Shown one piece after another: positions 3,738 through 13,653 of a DNA stretch of 64,000 nucleotides. A model generated the notes under the pieces. It did not search any database. It was not told the DNA's origin and saw nothing but the letters and a program-made list of their open reading frames with translations. Each line of letters opens with the position of its first letter. Positions within the stretch are counted from its first letter, which is position 1. The translations under genes and the position numbers were made by a program. Source of the stretch: Acidisoma cellulosilyticum (GTDB lineage: Bacteria; Pseudomonadota; Alphaproteobacteria; Acetobacterales; Acetobacteraceae); contig NZ_JAESVA010000001.1 in NCBI RefSeq assembly GCF_020621385.1, positions 372,001 through 436,000 on the forward strand, given 5' to 3'.

Positions 3738-6026
3738 ATGTCTCAGACTTCTCCCTCCAAGCGGGGGCGCAAGACCCGAACCCTTGCCGCCCCGCGTCGT
3801 CCACGCGGACAGGCGATGCGTTCGGCCGTCTGGCGGCAGGCGCTGCTCGGCGCCGTGTCGCTGATCAGTCTGACGGCGCTGGCGCCGCATCTCATTCAGG
3901 GTGCGTTGGCCGATGCGTCAGGCCCGACCTTCGACCGCAAGCAGCCGGTCACCTTCAAGGCCGACCGGATCGACTACAACCAGAAGACGAATATCGTCAC
4001 GCTGTCGGGTCATGTCGAAGCCTGGCAGGCAGGTCACGTACTGTTCGCGGACCGCGTGCTGTTCGACCGCAATACCAATATCGCGGATGCGGTCGGCCAT
4101 GTGGTGCTGGTCTCGCCCGACGGTCAGGTCGTCTATTCCAACTACGCCGAGCTCAGCCAGGACATGACCAATGGCGTCATGAGCGCGATGAACATCAGCT
4201 TGCCGCAAAATGCCAAGCTCGCCGCCAACGGAGGCCGGCGCACCGAGGGCAAGGTCAATGAGCTGAGCCGCGCCGTCTACACGGCTTGCGACGTCTGCGA
4301 CAAGCATCCGAACAGCTACCCGCTCTGGCAACTCACGGCCCGTTCCGCGACGCAAGACGTCGAGCACCATATGATCGAATACAAAGACGCGACGATGGAA
4401 CTCTACGGCGTTCCATTCTTGTGGCTGCCGTATTTCGCGCATCCCGATCCGACGTCGCCGCGTGTCAGTGGCCTGCTGATCCCGAGCGCGGGCTATAACA
4501 GCCATATCGGCGCCTTTGCGGAGATTCCGTATTATTGGGTGATCGATAAATCAACCGACGCCATCATCACGCCCATCCTGTCGAGCGACGAGGGCATCGC
4601 TGGCGACGTGAAATTGCGCCATTCGTTCAATTTCGGCGATATCAACGTCAATGCCTCATCCGGCTTCGACAAAGGCAACCTGCAGGGTGCCTTGTTCGCC
4701 GATGGTACCTTCGATCTGGATAGCGCCTGGCAGGCCGGCTTCAACGTATCCCGCGCCTCTTCGGTCGCTTACCTGAACGACTATTCGATCCTGCCGAATA
4801 CGAATGAGCTGGAAAGCGAGCTCTACCTTCAAGGCTTCGGCCACGGCTCCTACGCGCGCATCGAATCGAGCTTCTACCAGGGCCTTGTCGGCAGCGTGAC
4901 CGACAGCGAGCTGCCGCTGGTCCTGCCCTATGCCGCCTATGCCTATAAGGGCGACCCGGACGGCTGGGGCGGTACCACCTCGATCGATGCCAGCGCTTTC
5001 AACATCCTGCGCACGTCGGGCACCAATACGCAGCGCGCCGCCATCAGCGGCACCTATTCGCTGCCCTTCCAAGACAGCATCGGCGAACAATGGAGCGCCG
5101 ACCTGCATGTCGATCTCGCCGGCTATAACGCTGATAACATAAACGAATTCCCGAACTACGACACATCGGCCACGCATGCGTCCGAGCTGCGCGGCCTGCC
5201 CCAATTCGCCATCAACTACCGCTATCCGATCATGAACGAGGCGGGTTCGCTCGGTTCGCAGCTCTTTGAGCCGATCATCCAGCTGATCGCGGCGCCGATC
5301 ATCAGTAACGACGTCAATGTCACGAACATTCCGAACGAGGACAGCTACGACTTCCAGTTCACGGACGCGAACCTCTTCGGATTCAACAAATATCCCGGCA
5401 TCGATCGGCTGGAAAACGGCATGCGCGCGAATGTCGGATTCGAGAGCGCATGGTATTTCAACAATGGTTCGCGCCTCGACGGATTGATCGGCCAATCCTA
5501 CCGCGCCCATACCGATGATACTTTCGCGCCGGATTCCGGCCTGAACGACAATGTCTCGGACGTCGTCGCCCGCCTGACTTATACGCCGGCAAGCTGGCTG
5601 GACTTCACCTATCGCACCAGGCTCAACCACAAGAGCCTGCAGGACGAATATACGGATACCTTCGTCTCTGCCGGCGTTCCGGCGTTGCGCGTGACCGCGG
5701 GTTATCTCTATTCGGCGGTCGACCCTTATTACTATTACGACGGCAGCCCGCCGCCGGCTGAATATTACGTCCCGCGCAGCGAGGCGACCTTTGGCCTGAC
5801 CGCGGTGCATGGCGGCTGGAACTTCAACGGTGCCGTTCAGCAGAATATCCAGAGCGGTCAGCTCGACAGCACCAATGTCGGCATCGGCTGGCAGAATGAC
5901 TGCCTTGGCCTCAACCTCAGCTACATCCACAGCAATACGACCATTGCCGGCGAGGACGGGTCCACCACCGTTCTCTTCACTGTCACCTTCAAGACAATCG
6001 GCGCCATTGGGTTTAACGCACTCTAA
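3738..6026 (+). CDS. lptD: LPS-assembly outer-membrane protein LptD
   Basis: Outer-membrane beta-barrel that, with LptE, inserts LPS in the outer leaflet. The ATG at 3738, 11 bases past lptG, gives 762 residues. A basic N-terminus and a hydrophobic signal segment (residues ~30-60, ending near GALADA) precede the OstA/LptA-like jellyroll (FKADRIDYNQKTNIVTLSGH). Then comes a Cys pair in ACDVCDKHP and the long barrel rich in aromatic and Asn/Asp strands, closing with a C-terminal Phe/Leu-type strand. A single late Cys (NDCLGL) could pair with the N-terminal Cys residues. surA, the chaperone on which LptD folding depends in E. coli, follows directly. Confidence 0.94.
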   Translation: MSQTSPSKRGRKTRTLAAPRRPRGQAMRSAVWRQALLGAVSLISLTALAPHLIQGALADASGPTFDRKQPVTFKADRIDYNQKTNIVTLSGHVEAWQAGHVLFADRVLFDRNTNIADAVGHVVLVSPDGQVVYSNYAELSQDMTNGVMSAMNISLPQNAKLAANGGRRTEGKVNELSRAVYTACDVCDKHPNSYPLWQLTARSATQDVEHHMIEYKDATMELYGVPFLWLPYFAHPDPTSPRVSGLLIPSAGYNSHIGAFAEIPYYWVIDKSTDAIITPILSSDEGIAGDVKLRHSFNFGDINVNASSGFDKGNLQGALFADGTFDLDSAWQAGFNVSRASSVAYLNDYSILPNTNELESELYLQGFGHGSYARIESSFYQGLVGSVTDSELPLVLPYAAYAYKGDPDGWGGTTSIDASAFNILRTSGTNTQRAAISGTYSLPFQDSIGEQWSADLHVDLAGYNADNINEFPNYDTSATHASELRGLPQFAINYRYPIMNEAGSLGSQLFEPIIQLIAAPIISNDVNVTNIPNEDSYDFQFTDANLFGFNKYPGIDRLENGMRANVGFESAWYFNNGSRLDGLIGQSYRAHTDDTFAPDSGLNDNVSDVVARLTYTPASWLDFTYRTRLNHKSLQDEYTDTFVSAGVPALRVTAGYLYSAVDPYYYYDGSPPPAEYYVPRSEATFGLTAVHGGWNFNGAVQQNIQSGQLDSTNVGIGWQNDCLGLNLSYIHSNTTIAGEDGSTTVLFTVTFKTIGAIGFNAL

Positions 6027-6060
6027 TATGCCTAGGTTTTCGGGAGCTTCGAACGCAGCC

Positions 6061-7371
6061 ATGTCCTTCCGCCTGAAATTTCTTTGCCTGGCGGCGGTGC
6101 CGGCATGGCTCGCGCTGGCTGGCATGACCTTGCCCCGTGCCGAAGCGCAGACCGCCTCGATCGCTGCCGTGGTCAATGGCGACGTCATCACCAATGACGA
6201 CGTCGATAACCGCGCCCGCTTCTTCGCACTGGCCACCGGCCAGCAGGGCGGCGCCGATGTCGTCCAGCGCCTAAAGCCGCAGATCCTGCAGCAGCTCATC
6301 AACGAACGGCTGGAACTGCAGGAGATTCTGCGACGCGGCATTGTCGTCAACGACAAGCAGGTCGCCTCGGCGCTCGGCGAGATCGAGAAGAACAACAATA
6401 TGGGACCCGGCGTATTGCAGCAGAAACTGCGCGCAATCGGCGTCGACCCTGGCACGCTCATCGCCCAGATTCGCACGCAGATCGGCTGGAACCAGGTGCT
6501 GCGGCAGGTCGTGGGCGGTATGGGCCGTCCGACGGATGCCGATATCAACCGCCAACTCAAACTGATGACGGATAAGAAGGGCCAACCGCAATTTAACGTG
6601 GGTGAGATCTTCATCCCCATCAATAGCCCGGCGGCCGCACCGGGCGCCGATCGCTTCGCCCAGTCTGTGATCCAGCAGCTGCGCGCTGGCGCGCCCTTCA
6701 CGATCATCGCCGCCCAGTTCAGCCAGGGCCAGACCGCTCTGCAAGGCGGCGCGCTCGGCTGGGTCGGCGCCGACCAGCTCGATCCGGCCGTCGCTCAGCT
6801 TGTCACGCAGATGCCGATCGGCGCCATCAGCAATCCCGTGCCGGTCGCGGGCGGCATTGTCATCGTGCAGATGCGCGGGCGCCAGCAGGCCGGCCAGACC
6901 GACAGTGGCGCCGGCACCAACATTGTCCTAAACGTCCGCCAGGTTTTCCTGCCCTTCTCCTCGCCCTTGAACGAGCAGAACCCGACACAGCAGCAGCGCG
7001 ACACCATGGTGAAGCTGCATGCGATCGAGACCTCGGCCAAAAGCTGTGACGATATCGAGGCTGCCAACAAGGCGGCCGGCAATGTGAAGCCGGCCAATCC
7101 CGGCCCGGTCAATCTGGCCCAGGTGACGCCGGCAGCGTTCCAGACGCTGCTGTCCAATCTGCCCGTCGGCCGGGCGAGCCCGCCGTTGATCGCCGATAAC
7201 GGCGTCTCCGTCGTCATGATCTGTTCGCGCGACACCCAGGCGGCCGCCGCGCCGACGCGGGATCAGATCTCCGACCAACTGTTCCAGAACCGCGTCGGTC
7301 TGGCCGCCCAGCAGACGCTGGACGACCTCCATCGCCAGGGTTCCATCCAGATCATGCAGAATCAGGGATGA
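6061..7371 (+). CDS. surA: Periplasmic chaperone/peptidyl-prolyl isomerase SurA
   Basis: Periplasmic chaperone that carries unfolded outer-membrane proteins to the BAM complex. I place the start at the ATG at 6061 (436 residues); another in-frame ATG lies at 6028, but GGGAG sits a suitable distance before 6061. A signal peptide ends near AEAQ (about residue 25). The SurA N-domain begins at SIAAVVNGDVITNDDVDNR. A first parvulin domain lies at about residues 175-285 (ALGWVGADQLDPAVAQLV) and a more divergent second one follows. The 3' end overlaps rsmA by four bases, so the two are translationally coupled. Confidence 0.92.
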   Translation: MSFRLKFLCLAAVPAWLALAGMTLPRAEAQTASIAAVVNGDVITNDDVDNRARFFALATGQQGGADVVQRLKPQILQQLINERLELQEILRRGIVVNDKQVASALGEIEKNNNMGPGVLQQKLRAIGVDPGTLIAQIRTQIGWNQVLRQVVGGMGRPTDADINRQLKLMTDKKGQPQFNVGEIFIPINSPAAAPGADRFAQSVIQQLRAGAPFTIIAAQFSQGQTALQGGALGWVGADQLDPAVAQLVTQMPIGAISNPVPVAGGIVIVQMRGRQQAGQTDSGAGTNIVLNVRQVFLPFSSPLNEQNPTQQQRDTMVKLHAIETSAKSCDDIEAANKAAGNVKPANPGPVNLAQVTPAAFQTLLSNLPVGRASPPLIADNGVSVVMICSRDTQAAAAPTRDQISDQLFQNRVGLAAQQTLDDLHRQGSIQIMQNQG

Positions 7372-8231
7372 GTGAAGCCAAACCTTCGGTGACTGGGGTG
7401 TCCCCGACCCTGCCGTCGCTGAAGGACGTCATCTCCCGGCATTCCTTCCGGGCGAAGCATGCTTTGGGTCAGCACTTCCTGCTTGACCTCAACCTGACCG
7501 CGAAGATCGCCAGCATTGCCGGCGATCTGACCGGGCGGCATGTGATTGAAGTAGGACCGGGCCCCGGCGGCCTGACGCGGGCCTTGCTGGACTCACCGGC
7601 CGAGACCGTCACCGTCATCGAAATCGATCAGCGCGGTGTGGCGGTCGCCGAGGAACTGGCGGAATTTTACCCTGGTCGGTTGAAGGTCGTGAGCGGGGAC
7701 GCGCTGAAGATGCGCGCCGCCGATCTGACGCCTGCGCCCCGGCAGGTCATCGCCAACCTGCCGTACAATGTCGGCACACCGCTTCTGATCGGCTGGCTGC
7801 GCGATATCCGCGCCTACGAGCAACTGACCCTGATGTTCCAGGAGGAAGTTGCCCAAAGGATCGCGGCCGCCCCCGATACGGATGCCTACGGACGGCTGTC
7901 CGTGCTCGCGCAATGGACCTGCCGCACGGTCCTGGCCATGAGCTTGCCGCCCGAGGCTTTCACCCCGCCGCCCAAGGTCAATTCGGCCGTCGTGCGGATG
8001 ATACCCAATCCTGTCCAGCCTGAGCCGACGCTGTTCGCCGCCATGGAGAAGGTGACGCAGCACGCCTTCGGCCAGCGCCGAAAGATGCTGCGCGCCTCGC
8101 TTAAGCCGTTGGGCGGCGAAGCGCTGCTGCGCCGTGCGGAGATCGAACCGACCAGACGGGCCGAAACCCTATCGGTCGCGGAATTCGACACGCTGGCCCG
8201 GCTGGTCGCCGAGCCAGCGCGAGAAGCTTAG
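7368..8231 (+). CDS. rsmA: 16S rRNA (adenine1518/1519-N6)-dimethyltransferase RsmA
   Basis: Dimethylates two adjacent adenines in the 3' hairpin of 16S rRNA during 30S maturation. The 287-residue protein has the Rossmann SAM motif (IEVGPGPGGLTRALL, about residues 60-75), an acidic second motif (VIEIDQRG) and the catalytic NLPYNV motif. The C-terminal helical domain includes FGQRRKMLRASLK. It starts in an ATGA overlap with surA. In many proteobacteria pdxA sits between surA and rsmA; here it is missing from this position. The 3' end overlaps the convergent DUF4142 gene by four bases. Confidence 0.95.
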   Translation: MSEAKPSVTGVSPTLPSLKDVISRHSFRAKHALGQHFLLDLNLTAKIASIAGDLTGRHVIEVGPGPGGLTRALLDSPAETVTVIEIDQRGVAVAEELAEFYPGRLKVVSGDALKMRAADLTPAPRQVIANLPYNVGTPLLIGWLRDIRAYEQLTLMFQEEVAQRIAAAPDTDAYGRLSVLAQWTCRTVLAMSLPPEAFTPPPKVNSAVVRMIPNPVQPEPTLFAAMEKVTQHAFGQRRKMLRASLKPLGGEALLRRAEIEPTRRAETLSVAEFDTLARLVAEPAREA

Positions 8232-9031
8232 GACTGGCTATTGAACTGCAGCACCCGGCCATTCAGCTGATCGGCCGAGGTGTCAGGATTGCCTGAGACC
8301 TGCGGGTCGACGACCGAGGACGGCGGCGGCACCTGAACCGGAGCCGGCGTCATGGATGCCATGGCCGGCCCCTGCATGGGCATCGGGCTCATGCTCTCAG
8401 CAAGCTGGAGATGGTTTTCCAGCGCCGGCAGGGTCTGATGCGCATAGGCGCGGAGCTGCTGGCTCTGGCCTGTCATCGCCTCCTTACGGAATACGGCTAT
8501 GGCATGCTGATGAGCACGGACCATGGCGTGATTGAATTCCATATCGAACTGATCGGCTGGTACCGCCTGTAGATGCTGCAAAAGCGCGGTCTGCATGGGG
8601 CTGAGACCCGGAGAGGTCTTCAGCATCAGCGTATCCGCGATGGGGGTCAGCGCCTGCTCGGAATTCATGTGATCAGCTTCGAGCATTTTACCGAAATTCT
8701 GCTCGTTCGGAGACTGTCCACGCGCCTGCGCCAGTTTGCCGAATTCGACCTCAGCCTGATTGGTGGCGGATGCCGCCCAGACGAAATGCGCATCCTGCGT
8801 GGACGCACCAGGATTGCCGGCAGTATCGGCGGGCATCACGGTCGGCGTTCCCGCTTCCTGACCCGGCTTGAGCTGGATCACCTGTGTCGCGGCACCGGAA
8901 CCCTGCGGCGCCGTCGCATCACTTGTCGGCACATTCTGCGCCAGGGCAGCCGAGCCGGACGCCGTCAGCAAAGCGAGGCCGCAGGCGGTGGAGAGAAGCC
9001 AACGATTGGGGTTAGACTTGCCATTCCTCAT
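8228..9031 (-). CDS. Exported DUF4142 family protein
   Basis: A 267-residue secreted protein of unknown role. A clear signal peptide (residues 1-31, ending SAALAQ) is followed by a low-complexity Thr/Ala/Pro/Gln linker. The DUF4142 helical bundle covers about residues 80-210 (FVWAASATNQAEVEFGKLA and the H-rich AMVRAHQHAIAVFRKEA), and a Pro/Met-rich tail follows. DUF4142 proteins are predicted ferritin-like four-helix bundles; their reaction is unknown. A strong AAGGAG lies before the ATG. Monocistronic and convergent with rsmA. Confidence 0.85.
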   Translation of the reverse strand: MRNGKSNPNRWLLSTACGLALLTASGSAALAQNVPTSDATAPQGSGAATQVIQLKPGQEAGTPTVMPADTAGNPGASTQDAHFVWAASATNQAEVEFGKLAQARGQSPNEQNFGKMLEADHMNSEQALTPIADTLMLKTSPGLSPMQTALLQHLQAVPADQFDMEFNHAMVRAHQHAIAVFRKEAMTGQSQQLRAYAHQTLPALENHLQLAESMSPMPMQGPAMASMTPAPVQVPPPSSVVDPQVSGNPDTSADQLNGRVLQFNSQS

Positions 9032-9243
9032 GGAATTACTCCTTTTTAATTTTGGTCGCGTCGTCTTGCGAAAGACGGTGCGGTGTCCTGCATTTTGGCG
9101 GCGTGCTTTGGCTTCAAAGTCCGGGTCGCGCGAAGGTGAGGCCGCTCGCGAAGCCGTGCGATCGGCCGGCGGGACTTGCTCATCGGTTGCACACGGCTAA
9201 AAACCCTCATGCGACGCGCCCAAAAGACCGGTGAGGAGGCTTG

Positions 9244-11136
9244 GTGACCCGTCTGGCGGATATTTTCGCCCGGAAGGTCCCGCAGGGGGCGGAGCCGACT
9301 CCGCTCGCCCAACTCCGTCAGCCTGAACGCCAGCTTCGCATGGCGGAAACAGTGCGCACGGTTCTGATTGCGCGGGCTGCCATGCCGGTGAGCGAGGCCG
9401 GCAGCCAACCGATACCCCCCGAACTCATCGTCGCTGCCGAAACGGGGCAAAGCCCTGTGGTCGATGTCGCTACGACGCTCTGGACCCGCGTGCTGCGCTT
9501 CGACGCTGCCGCGACCGCCTGGGCGGATCGCGACCGCGTTGTCGTCTCCTGCCGGCAGCAGGCGCAGATCCTGCGTGTCATTCTTGAACTTTGCGGTATC
9601 GAACCAGCCGAACTGGCCCACGGCATGCCGGGCGTCGATCAGGTCCTCGGCATCCCCGGCCAGGCTTTGGCCTTCGCGGTCGGCGAAGCCCTGGCGGAAC
9701 GCATGATGGCGGCCCGCTTCGGCAAAAGCCTGGTCGATCATCGCGTCTGGCTATGGTCCTCCCTCGCCGACCTTGGCGGCGGGCTGAGTTACGAAGCCGC
9801 TTCCCTCGCGGGCGACCTGAAGCTCGCCAAGCTTGCCGTGATGGTGGAGGAACCGCCGGCGGCCGAGGCCGAGGCTGTCAACGCTATGCTGGAGCGGTTC
9901 GCGGGCTGGGGCTGGGCGACCAAACGCATCGCGGCTCACGACCCTGTCGCCGTCGCGTCTGCGCTGACCATCGCGCTGCGCGCACGCAAACCTTTGCTGA
10001 TTTCCTGCCGCCGGCCGACGGTGCCGCCGAAATTACAGGAGCGCGCCATTGCCGAGGACGTGCGCGAAGCCTGGCGGGCCGCTGGATCGCACAGCACGAC
10101 AGCACGGCGCGGCTGGCTGAAACGCCTGGCCCGTCATGCGCAAGCCTCGGAATTCGAGCGCGTGCTCGCGGGCCGGCTGCCGGACGGCTGGCGCGACGAG
10201 GTTCGGGCCGAGCGCGTGCGCATGGCCGAGATTACACAGCCGCTGTCGCCGCTTGCCGCCGGCCGGCTTTGCGCGACCGCGATGGCCAGCGCGATCCCCG
10301 ATCTGACCGGGGCTGCCCCCGGCAAATCGGCCGAGCCGATCGAGGGGATGACGGCCGTCGATGCCGCGGATTTCTCCGGCCGCCATATCGCGCTGGGTAC
10401 CGCCACCACTGCCCTGCCTGGCGTGCTGGCGGGGGCGGCGACCCATGGCGGACTGACGCTGGTCGGGGAAACCAAATCGACGGGCGCCGACAGCCTGCCG
10501 CAAACGCTGCGGTCGCTCGCCCGCGACGGCAGGCGTGTCATCCACATCCTGTCCGAGGATCATAATGACCCCGCAGCGACGGCGGCCCTGCCCCTCGCCT
10601 CGCTTCGCGCGATTCCCAACCTTCTCGTTTTCCGCCCGGCCTGTGCGATCGAAACCGCTGAGTGCTGGGAACTCGCCCTGCAGCGGGACGACGGGCCCAG
10701 CGTGCTGCTGCACACCGCCAAGCCGGTGGAGCGCTGGCGTCAGGACACGACAGAAAACGCATGCGCGCGGGGCGGCTATGTCGCGGCGGGCTTGTATGAT
10801 GCGCGCGCTGCGACTTTGATCGCGAGTGGCGCGGAACTGGCGGTTGCTATGGAGGCCCGGCGTCTTCTCGCTGACGCGGGAATTTCGGTTGCAGTCGTCT
10901 CCTTGCCGTGCTGGTCCCTATTTGCCAACCAGAACGACGCTTACCGGGCCGATATATTGGGCGATGCCCCACGTCTGGCGGTGGAGGCCGGTTCAGATTT
11001 CGGCTGGGGCCGCTGGCTTGGCGAGCGCGGACAGTTTATCGGAGCGGCAAGCCTGGGGCTATCGGCCGCCCGGCCCGGTGAATATTTCGAGGTCACGGCG
11101 GAAGCGCTGGTGATCGCGGTAAAAAAGAAGCTTTGA
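9244..11136 (+). CDS. Degenerate transketolase-like protein (probable pseudoenzyme)
   Basis: A 630-residue protein that follows transketolase end to end but lacks the catalytic motifs. Fold landmarks remain: WADRDRVVVS (~residue 95), EAASLAGDLKLAKLAV (~185), IPNLLVFRP (~458), ARGGYV and LAVEAG in the C-domain. Where active enzymes have SGHPG, NGHGS, GDG with a downstream Asn, the glutamate of GVREF(G/H) and the EDGPTHQP loop, this protein has TGQSP, CRQQA, SLADLGGG with EEPPA, GTATTAL and DHNDPAATA. The GTG at 9244 follows GGAGG by four bases; a TTG at 9241 is possible. The frame is intact and well coded, so this is not a decaying gene. It lies 39 bases upstream of gap, suggesting cotranscription. 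Function unknown; possibly a scaffold or regulator. Confidence 0.82.
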   Translation: MTRLADIFARKVPQGAEPTPLAQLRQPERQLRMAETVRTVLIARAAMPVSEAGSQPIPPELIVAAETGQSPVVDVATTLWTRVLRFDAAATAWADRDRVVVSCRQQAQILRVILELCGIEPAELAHGMPGVDQVLGIPGQALAFAVGEALAERMMAARFGKSLVDHRVWLWSSLADLGGGLSYEAASLAGDLKLAKLAVMVEEPPAAEAEAVNAMLERFAGWGWATKRIAAHDPVAVASALTIALRARKPLLISCRRPTVPPKLQERAIAEDVREAWRAAGSHSTTARRGWLKRLARHAQASEFERVLAGRLPDGWRDEVRAERVRMAEITQPLSPLAAGRLCATAMASAIPDLTGAAPGKSAEPIEGMTAVDAADFSGRHIALGTATTALPGVLAGAATHGGLTLVGETKSTGADSLPQTLRSLARDGRRVIHILSEDHNDPAATAALPLASLRAIPNLLVFRPACAIETAECWELALQRDDGPSVLLHTAKPVERWRQDTTENACARGGYVAAGLYDARAATLIASGAELAVAMEARRLLADAGISVAVVSLPCWSLFANQNDAYRADILGDAPRLAVEAGSDFGWGRWLGERGQFIGAASLGLSAARPGEYFEVTAEALVIAVKKKL

Positions 11137-11175: not shown

Positions 11176-12189
11176 ATGGCAGTGACGGTAGCGATCAATG
11201 GTTTCGGCCGTATCGGGCGACTGGTTCTACGCGCGCTGATCGAAAGCGGCCGCACCGATGTCACCCCGGTGCTGATCAACGACCTCGGCTCCGTCGAGGC
11301 GAATGCCCATATGTTCCGCTACGACAGCGTCCATGGCCGCTTCCCCGGCGAAGTGAAGGTCGAAGGCGACAGCCTCGTCATCACCCATAACGGCCGTACC
11401 TATGCGCCCATCAAGGTCTCCGCCGAGCGCGATCCGTCCAAGGTGCCGCTGCAGGGCGTCGATGTTGCGATGGAATGCACGGGCATCTTCACCAGCAAGG
11501 AAAAGGCGCTGCCGCTTCTTGAAGCCGGCGCGCGCAAGGTGATCATCTCGGCCCCGGCCGATAACGTCGACGCAACGATCGTCTATGGCGTCAATGACAA
11601 GACGCTGACCGCCGACATGACCGTCATCTCCAACGCCTCCTGCACCACCAACTGCCTGGCGCCGGTGGCCAAGGTCCTGAACGATAATTTCGGTATCCTG
11701 CGCGGCTATATGGTCACGATCCACAGCTACACGGGCGATCAGAAGACGGTCGACACGCTGCATAAGGATCTGCACCGCGCCCGCGCCGCTGCTCTCTCCC
11801 TGATCCCGACCTCGACCGGTGCGGCCCGCGCCGTCGGCCTCGTGCTGCCGGAACTGAAGGGCAAGCTGGACGGCACCGCCATTCGCGTGCCGACGCCGAA
11901 CGTGTCGCTGGTCTCCCTCGACGTGAACCTCGCCAAGAAGGCCACGAAGGAAGAGATCAACGCGGTGATGAAGGAAGCCTCGGAAGGCTATCTGAAGGGC
12001 ATCCTCGGCTATAACACCGAGCCCCTGGTCAGCTCCGACTTCAACCACAACCCGGCGTCCAGCACCTTCGACGCGCCGCAGACCGCGGTCGTGGACGGCG
12101 AAATGGCCCGCGTTCTGGCTTGGTACGATAACGAGTGGGGCTTCTCCAACCGCATGTCGGACACGGCCGCCGCCTTCGGCGCCCTCTAG
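11176..12189 (+). CDS. gap: Glyceraldehyde-3-phosphate dehydrogenase, type I
   Basis: Oxidises glyceraldehyde 3-phosphate to 1,3-bisphosphoglycerate with NAD, or runs in reverse. The 337-residue protein has the nucleotide motif INGFGRIGR at its N-terminus, the catalytic [12 protein letters not shown] (Cys ~156) and the conserved C-terminal [13 protein letters not shown] good ribosome site (GAGGAG) precedes the ATG. It sits between the transketolase-like gene and pgk. Its TAG stop (12187-12189) coincides with the end of a dispersed repeat. Lys and Pro codons are nearly all AAG and CCG, consistent with high expression. Confidence 0.97.
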
Positions 12190-12351: not shown

Positions 12352-12465
12352 GGATTGTTGATGTTGGGCCTGATTCACGGTGTGGATTGGGTCGTTTTCA
12401 GCGATGCAAGCCACACCGACCAGGCCCTAATCGACACTGCTCAACTGAGGCTCAAGGGACGCGCC

Positions 12466-13653
12466 ATGACTTTCAAGACGCTCGATCAGGCTGATGTTGC
12501 GGGGAAGCGCGTGCTTGTGCGCGCCGACCTCAACGTGCCTATGCGGGACGGCCATATCAGCGACATGACCCGTGTGGAGCGTGTCGCGCCGACGATCCTG
12601 GACATCGCCGACAAGGGCGGCCGGGTCATCGTCCTCTCGCATTTCGAGCGGCCGAAGGGCAAGCGCGTCCCTGAAATGTCCCTCGCCCCGCTGGCCGAAG
12701 CGCTGGCGGAAGTGCTGCGCAAGCCGGTGGCTTTCGCGGATGACTGCATCGGCCCGGAGGCCGAGGCCGCCGTGGCGAAGATGCAGGACGGCGACGTGCT
12801 GCTGCTGGAGAACACCCGCTTCCACAAGGGCGAGGAAGAGAACGATCCCGCTTTCGCGGCTGCTCTTGGCAAGCTCGGCGACGTTTACGTCAATGACGCT
12901 TTCTCCGCCGCCCACCGCGCCCATGGCAGCACCGAAGGCGTTGCCCAGCATCTGCCGAGCTATGCCGGCCGGTTGATGCAGGCGGAGTTGGATGCGCTGG
13001 GAGCGGCCCTCGCCAACCCCGAGCGGCCGGTGATGGCGATCGTCGGCGGGTCCAAGGTTTCGACCAAACTCGACCTGCTCGGCAATCTGCTGGACAAGGT
13101 CGACGTGCTCGTCATCGTCGGCGCCATGGCCAATACCTTCCTGGCCGCCAAGGGCATGCCGGTCGGTCGGTCGCTGCAGGAGAAAGACCTGCACGAAACC
13201 GCCCGCACGATTATGGCGCAAGCGGCAAAAGGCTCCTGCGAGATCCTGCTGCCGGTGGATGGCACGGTCGCCCAGGAATTCAAGGCGCATGCGCCGACCG
13301 AGGTTTTGGCGGTCGACGTCGCGCATGACGGCATGGCGCTCGACGTCGGGCCGGCCTCCGCCGACCTCATCATCGCGCGGCTGCAGGAGATGAAGACGCT
13401 GGTCTGGAACGGCCCGCTGGGCGCGTTCGAGATCCAGCCCTTCGATGCCTCGACCATGAAGGTCGCCAAGGCCGTGGCGGACCTGACGCAGGAAGGCAAA
13501 TTGCGCAGCGTGGCGGGTGGCGGCGATACCGTCTCCGCGCTGCGCCAGGCGGGCGTGATCGACGAGCTGAGCTATGTTTCCTCGGCCGGCGGCGCGTTCC
13601 TGGAATGGCTTGAAGGCAAGACACTTCCTGGCGTGAAGGCGCTGAGCCGATGA
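12466..13653 (+). CDS. pgk: Phosphoglycerate kinase
   Basis: Transfers phosphate between 1,3-bisphosphoglycerate and ADP. The 395-residue protein shows the N-domain substrate motif [11 protein letters not shown], the hinge GGSKVSTK and the C-terminal nucleotide motif [10 protein letters not shown] chose the ATG at 12466, preceded by AAGGGA, over in-frame starts further upstream, since pgk proteins start just before this motif. It follows gap after 276 bases of repeat-filled sequence. The stop overlaps the next start by four bases (ATGA), coupling pgk to the FAH-family gene. Confidence 0.97.

Follow-up and report, generated by a model that had tools for sequence, protein, structure and literature searches.

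A transketolase homologue lacking catalytic residues precedes gap and pgk in Acidisoma cellulosilyticum and is a candidate pseudoenzyme of the Acetobacteraceae

Introduction

Why would a bacterium keep, directly ahead of its glycolytic genes gap and pgk, a full-length relative of transketolase without the residues of the active site? The question is raised by the window analysed here, a stretch of 64,000 nucleotides of the Acidisoma cellulosilyticum genome (assembly GCF_020621385.1, contig NZ_JAESVA010000001.1, positions 372,001 to 436,000). An initial annotation, made from the window alone, described a transketolase homologue that had lost every catalytic motif and proposed selection for a non-catalytic role. 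We estimate a probability of about 0.8 that the gene codes for a lineage-wide pseudoenzyme kept by purifying selection, which its residues would make non-catalytic and which is predicted to fold.

Results

The pseudo-transketolase gene lies at positions 9244 to 11136 (+) and encodes a protein of 630 amino acids, comprising three transketolase domains and none of 13 functional residues. The 630 open codons reported in the initial annotation were confirmed, with no internal stops and a stop codon that ends at 11136. Translation would start at GTG 9244 or TTG 9241, and the GTG is favored by the A. silvae orthologue, which starts VTRLA; a possible ribosome-binding site, GAGGAGG (9233 to 9239, +), was read by eye 4 bases 5' of this codon. 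Upstream lie lptD, surA, ksgA and a gene for a DUF4142 protein. Downstream are gap, encoding glyceraldehyde-3-phosphate dehydrogenase (GAPDH; 11176 to 12189, +), which follows after 39 bases, and pgk, encoding phosphoglycerate kinase (PGK; 12466 to 13653, +). The mechanically listed pgk reading frame (12355 to 13653) begins 37 codons ahead of the likely ATG start at 12466, and homology begins at its residue 38, this ATG. The DUF4142 gene (8228 to 9031, -), just upstream of the pseudo-transketolase gene, overlaps the end of ksgA by 4 bases.

The protein is homologous to bacterial transketolase (TktA; TIGR00232; PF00456, PF02779 and PF22613) along its full length. Pfam searches detected Transketolase_N (81.2 bits), Transket_pyr (38.8 bits) and Transketolase_C_1 (92.1 bits), in this order and all above their cut-offs. 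An AlphaFold2 model (mean pLDDT, 81.0; pTM, 0.86) matched E. coli transketolase (2r8o, chain A) along the chain with a TM-score of 0.83; 49 of its 50 best matches in the PDB are titled transketolase, and the remaining one, 2e6k, is also a transketolase. The model of an intact operon transketolase, that of Rhodopila globiformis (L151), was poor (mean pLDDT, 61.1). The fold landmarks named in the initial annotation were located in the translation. Together, the Pfam domains and the model predict the same three-domain fold as that of bacterial transketolase, in line with the claim of full-length homology.

Catalytic capacity was assessed by alignment to E. coli TktA at 13 positions (H26, H66, H100, D155, N185, H261, R358, S385, E411, H461, D469, H473 and R520), a list that we take to represent the functional residues. 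H26, H261, S385, D469, R520 and F434 are sites named in excerpts of PMC5073344, and R358 is named in part of PMC7661550. The pseudo-transketolase retains 0 of the 13 positions, whereas the other transketolase of the same genome, to which it is 34% identical, retains all 13. At the ThDP/Mg motif and the catalytic glutamate, D155, N185 and E411 correspond to Leu174, Pro204 and Thr388, and the remaining 10 active-site histidines and substrate-contacting positions are likewise replaced or deleted. In the former ThDP-pyrophosphate (PP) domain (residues 72 to 257; 9457 to 10014, +), the NGHGS, GDG and Asn positions are replaced, as is the SGHPG position just 5' of this segment. The segment K249-R294 (9988 to 10125, +) is shortened to 46 residues; all but one of the 75 intact family members have 75 residues there, and the exception has 72. 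The catalytic loop bearing E. coli H258 and H261 falls within the missing stretch. The former pyrimidine-binding (Pyr) domain (residues about 346 to 504; 10279 to 10755, +) has Thr388 at the Glu411 position and Ala445 at the His473 position. The C-terminal domain (residues 505 to 630; 10756 to 11133, +) is the most tightly constrained part, with a dN/dS of 0.02 against A. silvae. The loss of every catalytic motif was thus borne out. Unlike bacterial transketolase, the window protein scored 213.8 bits against TIGR00232, below the cut-off of 682.25; this score, the residues and the loss of the loop rule out assignment as an active transketolase (EC 2.2.1.1).

Among 150 Acetobacteraceae genomes, that of the window included, a degraded operon gene with functional positions read was present in at least 25 genomes of 18 genera; this is a lower bound, as part of the 150 genomes were read, one of them (G071) in part. 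With 2 more Acidisoma species, a metagenome-assembled genome (MAG; locus L178) and 20 genomes of two of the genera, 48 degraded genes were available. Neither H261 nor H473 is kept in any of 27 degraded homologues or in 21 further ones. No functional position is kept in four of the five Acidisoma genomes or in G135, G048, G080 and G043, and G053, the fifth Acidisoma genome, keeps 2 by alignment. Loss is graded in others, with up to 9 of 13 positions kept in G078 and 8 in G092. The motif counts leave aside the partial genes of G009, G128 and G132, and the G071 locus (L213) is cut at one end. The matched stretches of the degraded homologues are free of stops. In 47 of the 48 cases gap lies on the same strand within about 200 bases downstream; the sole exception is G117, with no gap in the 11-kb stretch around the degraded gene. 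No gap was found in the stretch taken from G037x.

All five Acidisoma genomes found carry the degraded form, and the copy of A. silvae HW T2.11 is 91% identical to the window gene; the degraded proteins of other genera are 35 to 45% identical to the window protein. Other genera show the same loss, as do all five Acidisoma genomes, one of them from the named isolate A. silvae HW T2.11; this recurrence excludes a local mutation or assembly error and makes a sequencing, assembly or frame error of any kind hardly credible.

The initial annotation had also held that intact orthologues in the same position would argue against its reading. None was found among close relatives, the five Acidisoma genes all being degraded, but intact genes do occupy the position in more distant genera. 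At 75 of 80 named loci the transketolase was intact for the motifs checked, as in Rhodopila globiformis, Falsiroseomonas stagni, Siccirubricoccus deserti and several Roseomonas. Downstream of 65 of the intact genes, gap follows within at most 300 bases, and downstream of 5 it follows after 391 to 1,502 bases; it was not found near the other 5, 3 of which have less than 400 bases of room. Because most intact relatives have a transketolase in the same slot before gap, the degraded gene is, judged from the sequences, the operon enzyme inactivated in place. Of 28 genomes chosen for a weak or partial transketolase match, 22 yielded a gap locus. Transketolase-like sequence was absent from the 1.5-kb gap flanks, some of which end at contig ends, in 20 of these 22, which suggests that the function is dispensable in those genomes; G071 and G132, the remaining two, have degraded or partial genes by gap.

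A class-wide search of 190 genomes, at least 162 of which had a match at an E value of 1e-120 or better, revealed, among the matches listed, no gene beyond the Acetobacteraceae that was evidently degraded, and all five motifs read were intact at the nine best loci from other genomes. Elsewhere in the class, three full-length transketolase matches from other families (G343:C34:220666-222660, G246:C15:806-2776 and G333:C37:2217-4187) each contain a single in-frame TAG or TAA, which could be an error, a pseudogene or recoding.

In a rooted tree of 47 transketolases, 25 of them degraded and the genes of G080 and G043 not among them, all degraded genes except L178 formed one group (SH-aLRT, 93.1), possibly through long-branch attraction. 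Next to this group falls L162, in which the first histidine motif reads SGYPG. L178 (MAG LL2.bin68, 4384 to 6354) is a degraded operon transketolase before gap that keeps 5 of 13 positions and has a loop segment of 56 residues; it grouped with Rhodopila-type genes (93.6). Its placement apart from the main group implies at least two losses on the rooted tree, and L178 is apparently a second, independent degradation. At L111, from a Rhodopila sp. MAG (4414 to 6450), the motif reads SGHAG, H261 is gone and 12 of 13 positions are kept; L111 and L162 may represent early steps of decay. A tree of gap and pgk, which is unrooted, has weak deep nodes and lacks four rows without gap, did not unite the genomes with degraded genes. 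The family phylogeny in the part available of PMC10715153 places the acidophilic Acidisoma, Acidocella and Acidiphilium beside the acetous clade. If our genomes belong to such taxa, as we suppose, this phylogeny would fit a single main loss, with the gene later deleted in acetous bacteria.

If the gene were a slowly decaying pseudogene that had stayed open by chance, dN/dS would be expected near 1, the outcome that the initial annotation had named as refuting. Its fast divergence between genera, the loop deletions and the 20 selected relatives without transketolase-like sequence by gap would suit such a pseudogene. We obtained a dN/dS (NG86) of 0.072 (bootstrap, 0.049 to 0.099; 200 resamples) between the window gene and that of A. 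silvae; for the same species pair the values were 0.143 for the genome's own intact transketolase, 0.054 for gap and 0.112 for pgk. Four other within-genus pairs of degraded genes gave 0.136, 0.195, 0.212 and 0.286, compared with 0.184 for a pair of intact operon transketolases, and three species of genus g31 gave 0.034 to 0.054. More distant Acidisoma pairs gave 0.22 to 0.36, with dS near saturation; NG86 saturates for most pairs beyond the closest. Among the pairs listed for genus g43, closer ones gave 0.10 to 0.17 and more distant ones 0.32 to 0.36. The pairs listed are the 14 with the lowest dS in each genus, and six g31 pairs gave no dS. The median for the degraded gene was 0.122 in g31 and 0.257 in g43, and that for gap was 0.066 and 0.101, respectively. 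All 10 degraded pairs showed constraint on each of the PP, Pyr and C domains (per-domain values, 0.02 to 0.34). Constraint on the degraded gene is real but looser than that on gap. Values of 0.03 to 0.29 in close pairs of several lineages, together with matched stretches free of stops, contradict decay, and an upstream frame kept for translational coupling to gap would leave its amino acids unconstrained; we regard both as very improbable. The degraded gene thus combines the loss of catalytic residues with a predicted transketolase fold and purifying selection, as a pseudoenzyme would, and these data are consistent with the proposed selection for a non-catalytic role.

The pattern of conservation bears on whether the fold has been redirected to a new ligand or to ThDP-independent chemistry. 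The intact set comprised 75 proteins, with L107, L108, L110, L178 and L162 kept outside it and L178 placed with the 27 degraded proteins. The intact proteins share 238 columns with at least 97% conservation; in the degraded ones, conservation persists at 90% in 81 of these columns and falls below 50% in 70. Entropy rose 1.75-fold in the C domain, 1.93-fold in the linker, 2.82-fold in PP and 3.07-fold in Pyr. Strong constraint within lineages would be expected of a new ligand or chemistry, and new residues are preferred at some sites, for example Trp at the H473 position in 12 of 27 degraded proteins. However, conservation was gained in only eight columns, which include the start Met and none of which is charged, and the former site positions differ between genera. 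These eight columns give no evidence of a new functional surface, and we consider redirection improbable.

An intact transketolase elsewhere in the genome had been suggested as a check, and one is present, with 13 of 13 positions and 819.2 bits against TIGR00232; the possibility that the genome lacks an intact enzyme was rejected. A transketolase above the TIGR00232 cut-off is present in all 41 genomes scored; the operon gene is degraded in 27 of these genomes and, in three of the 27, known in part. Wherever the second transketolase of a degraded-gene genome was read (24 genomes), it was complete at all 13 positions; a 173-residue match in G128 is in the wrong frame (1 of 13 positions) and was left out of the counts. 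In 18 of the 19 degraded-gene genomes outside Acidisoma present in the tree, the second enzyme belongs to one group, and the active transketolase of Acidisoma lies elsewhere in the tree. The second-transketolase loci of G060 (L277, 6264 to 14180), G030 (L279, 3697 to 8745) and G078 (L278, 7617 to 12465) were opened, and in all three a transaldolase gene adjoins the transketolase gene (a PGI-domain fusion in two); gnd and zwf also adjoin it in G060, and zwf does so in G078. No pentose-phosphate gene was detected among the three scanned neighbours of the active Acidisoma transketolase.

Discussion

These observations suggest a history that began, in a lineage of the Acetobacteraceae, with the ancestral transketolase of the operon. 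Another transketolase would have taken over the chemistry, the operon copy would have been inactivated in place, and the inactive copy would then probably have been retained as a folded, non-catalytic protein under purifying selection. The simplest reading is that a displaced enzyme was released from catalysis, in an order of events that we infer. We propose that the pseudo-transketolase forms a transketolase-type dimer without catalytic function, which would probably act through protein-protein contact at the triose/pentose-phosphate node.

With whom it might interact is a more tentative matter. The most likely choice, placed slightly ahead of the active transketolase though still less likely than not, is one of the enzymes encoded beside it, GAPDH or PGK, and the lasting adjacency to gap counts toward this. 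Because the order tkt-gap-pgk is ancestral, adjacency by itself neither names the partner nor means regulation of gap-pgk, and the scaffold or regulator proposed in the initial annotation is hypothetical. Distance-residual correlations were 0.33 for pgk, 0.25 for gap and 0.09 for the second transketolase, values that are weak and not significant (16 genomes, non-independent points).

The active transketolase is a possible partner, if an unlikely one. Each ThDP site of transketolase is built from the PP domain of one chain and the Pyr domain of its partner, and these two domains form the dimer core. Since both halves are dead in the pseudo-transketolase, neither site of a mixed dimer could work, and the protein might lower transketolase activity by heterodimerization whenever gap-pgk is transcribed. 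We judge such a brake unlikely as well. An active-type transketolase is present in the same genome, and PP and Pyr, the domains such a dimer would need, remain constrained. There is also a precedent: according to the part consulted of PMC6555833, human TKTL1 by itself is virtually inactive, and it pairs with TKT in stable heterodimers, which alter TKT activity. Against it stand the identity of just 34% to the genome's own transketolase, the need for one partner enzyme in Acidisoma and another in the remaining genera, and the near absence of distance correlation with the second transketolase (0.09, a weak test). More broadly, the displaced operon transketolase, produced together with GAPDH and PGK, could be a brake that sets the split between lower glycolysis and the pentose-phosphate cycle, either through dead mixed dimers with the current transketolase or by gating GAPDH or PGK directly. 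We consider this version doubtful; if true, bacteria would have evolved their own counterpart of TKTL1 independently.

Like the pseudo-transketolase, TKTL1 is described in that portion of PMC6555833 as a transketolase paralogue alongside active TKT. Unlike TKTL1, the window protein is bacterial, has lost residues on both the PP and the Pyr sides and is encoded in a glycolytic operon, and its heterodimer is hypothetical; we infer separate origins. The trypanosome AdoMetDC prozyme and deoxyhypusine synthase (DHS) paralogue, as presented in excerpts of PMC5201418 and PMC3663545, are likewise inactive paralogues maintained alongside an active enzyme, which they regulate. They derive from other enzymes, however, and there the partner and the effect are established. 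Among the matches listed in a search of the open-licence literature, no bacterial transketolase pseudoenzyme was found. To our knowledge, a full-length pseudoenzyme of central metabolism kept across much of a bacterial family is unusual. Since a single locus displays intact, graded intermediate, degraded and empty-slot states, it offers a direct view of how an enzyme became a non-enzyme, and this step would be testable in culturable species. Such genes could also be mis-annotated as transketolase and enter metabolic models.

The genome of the window also contains a two-gene (split) transketolase-like pair (L002, G000:C8:69398-73159; 501 to 2334 of the locus), with an N half of 283 amino acids and a C half of 329. 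A split transketolase is known from Carboxydothermus, as given in the available part of PMC7661550.
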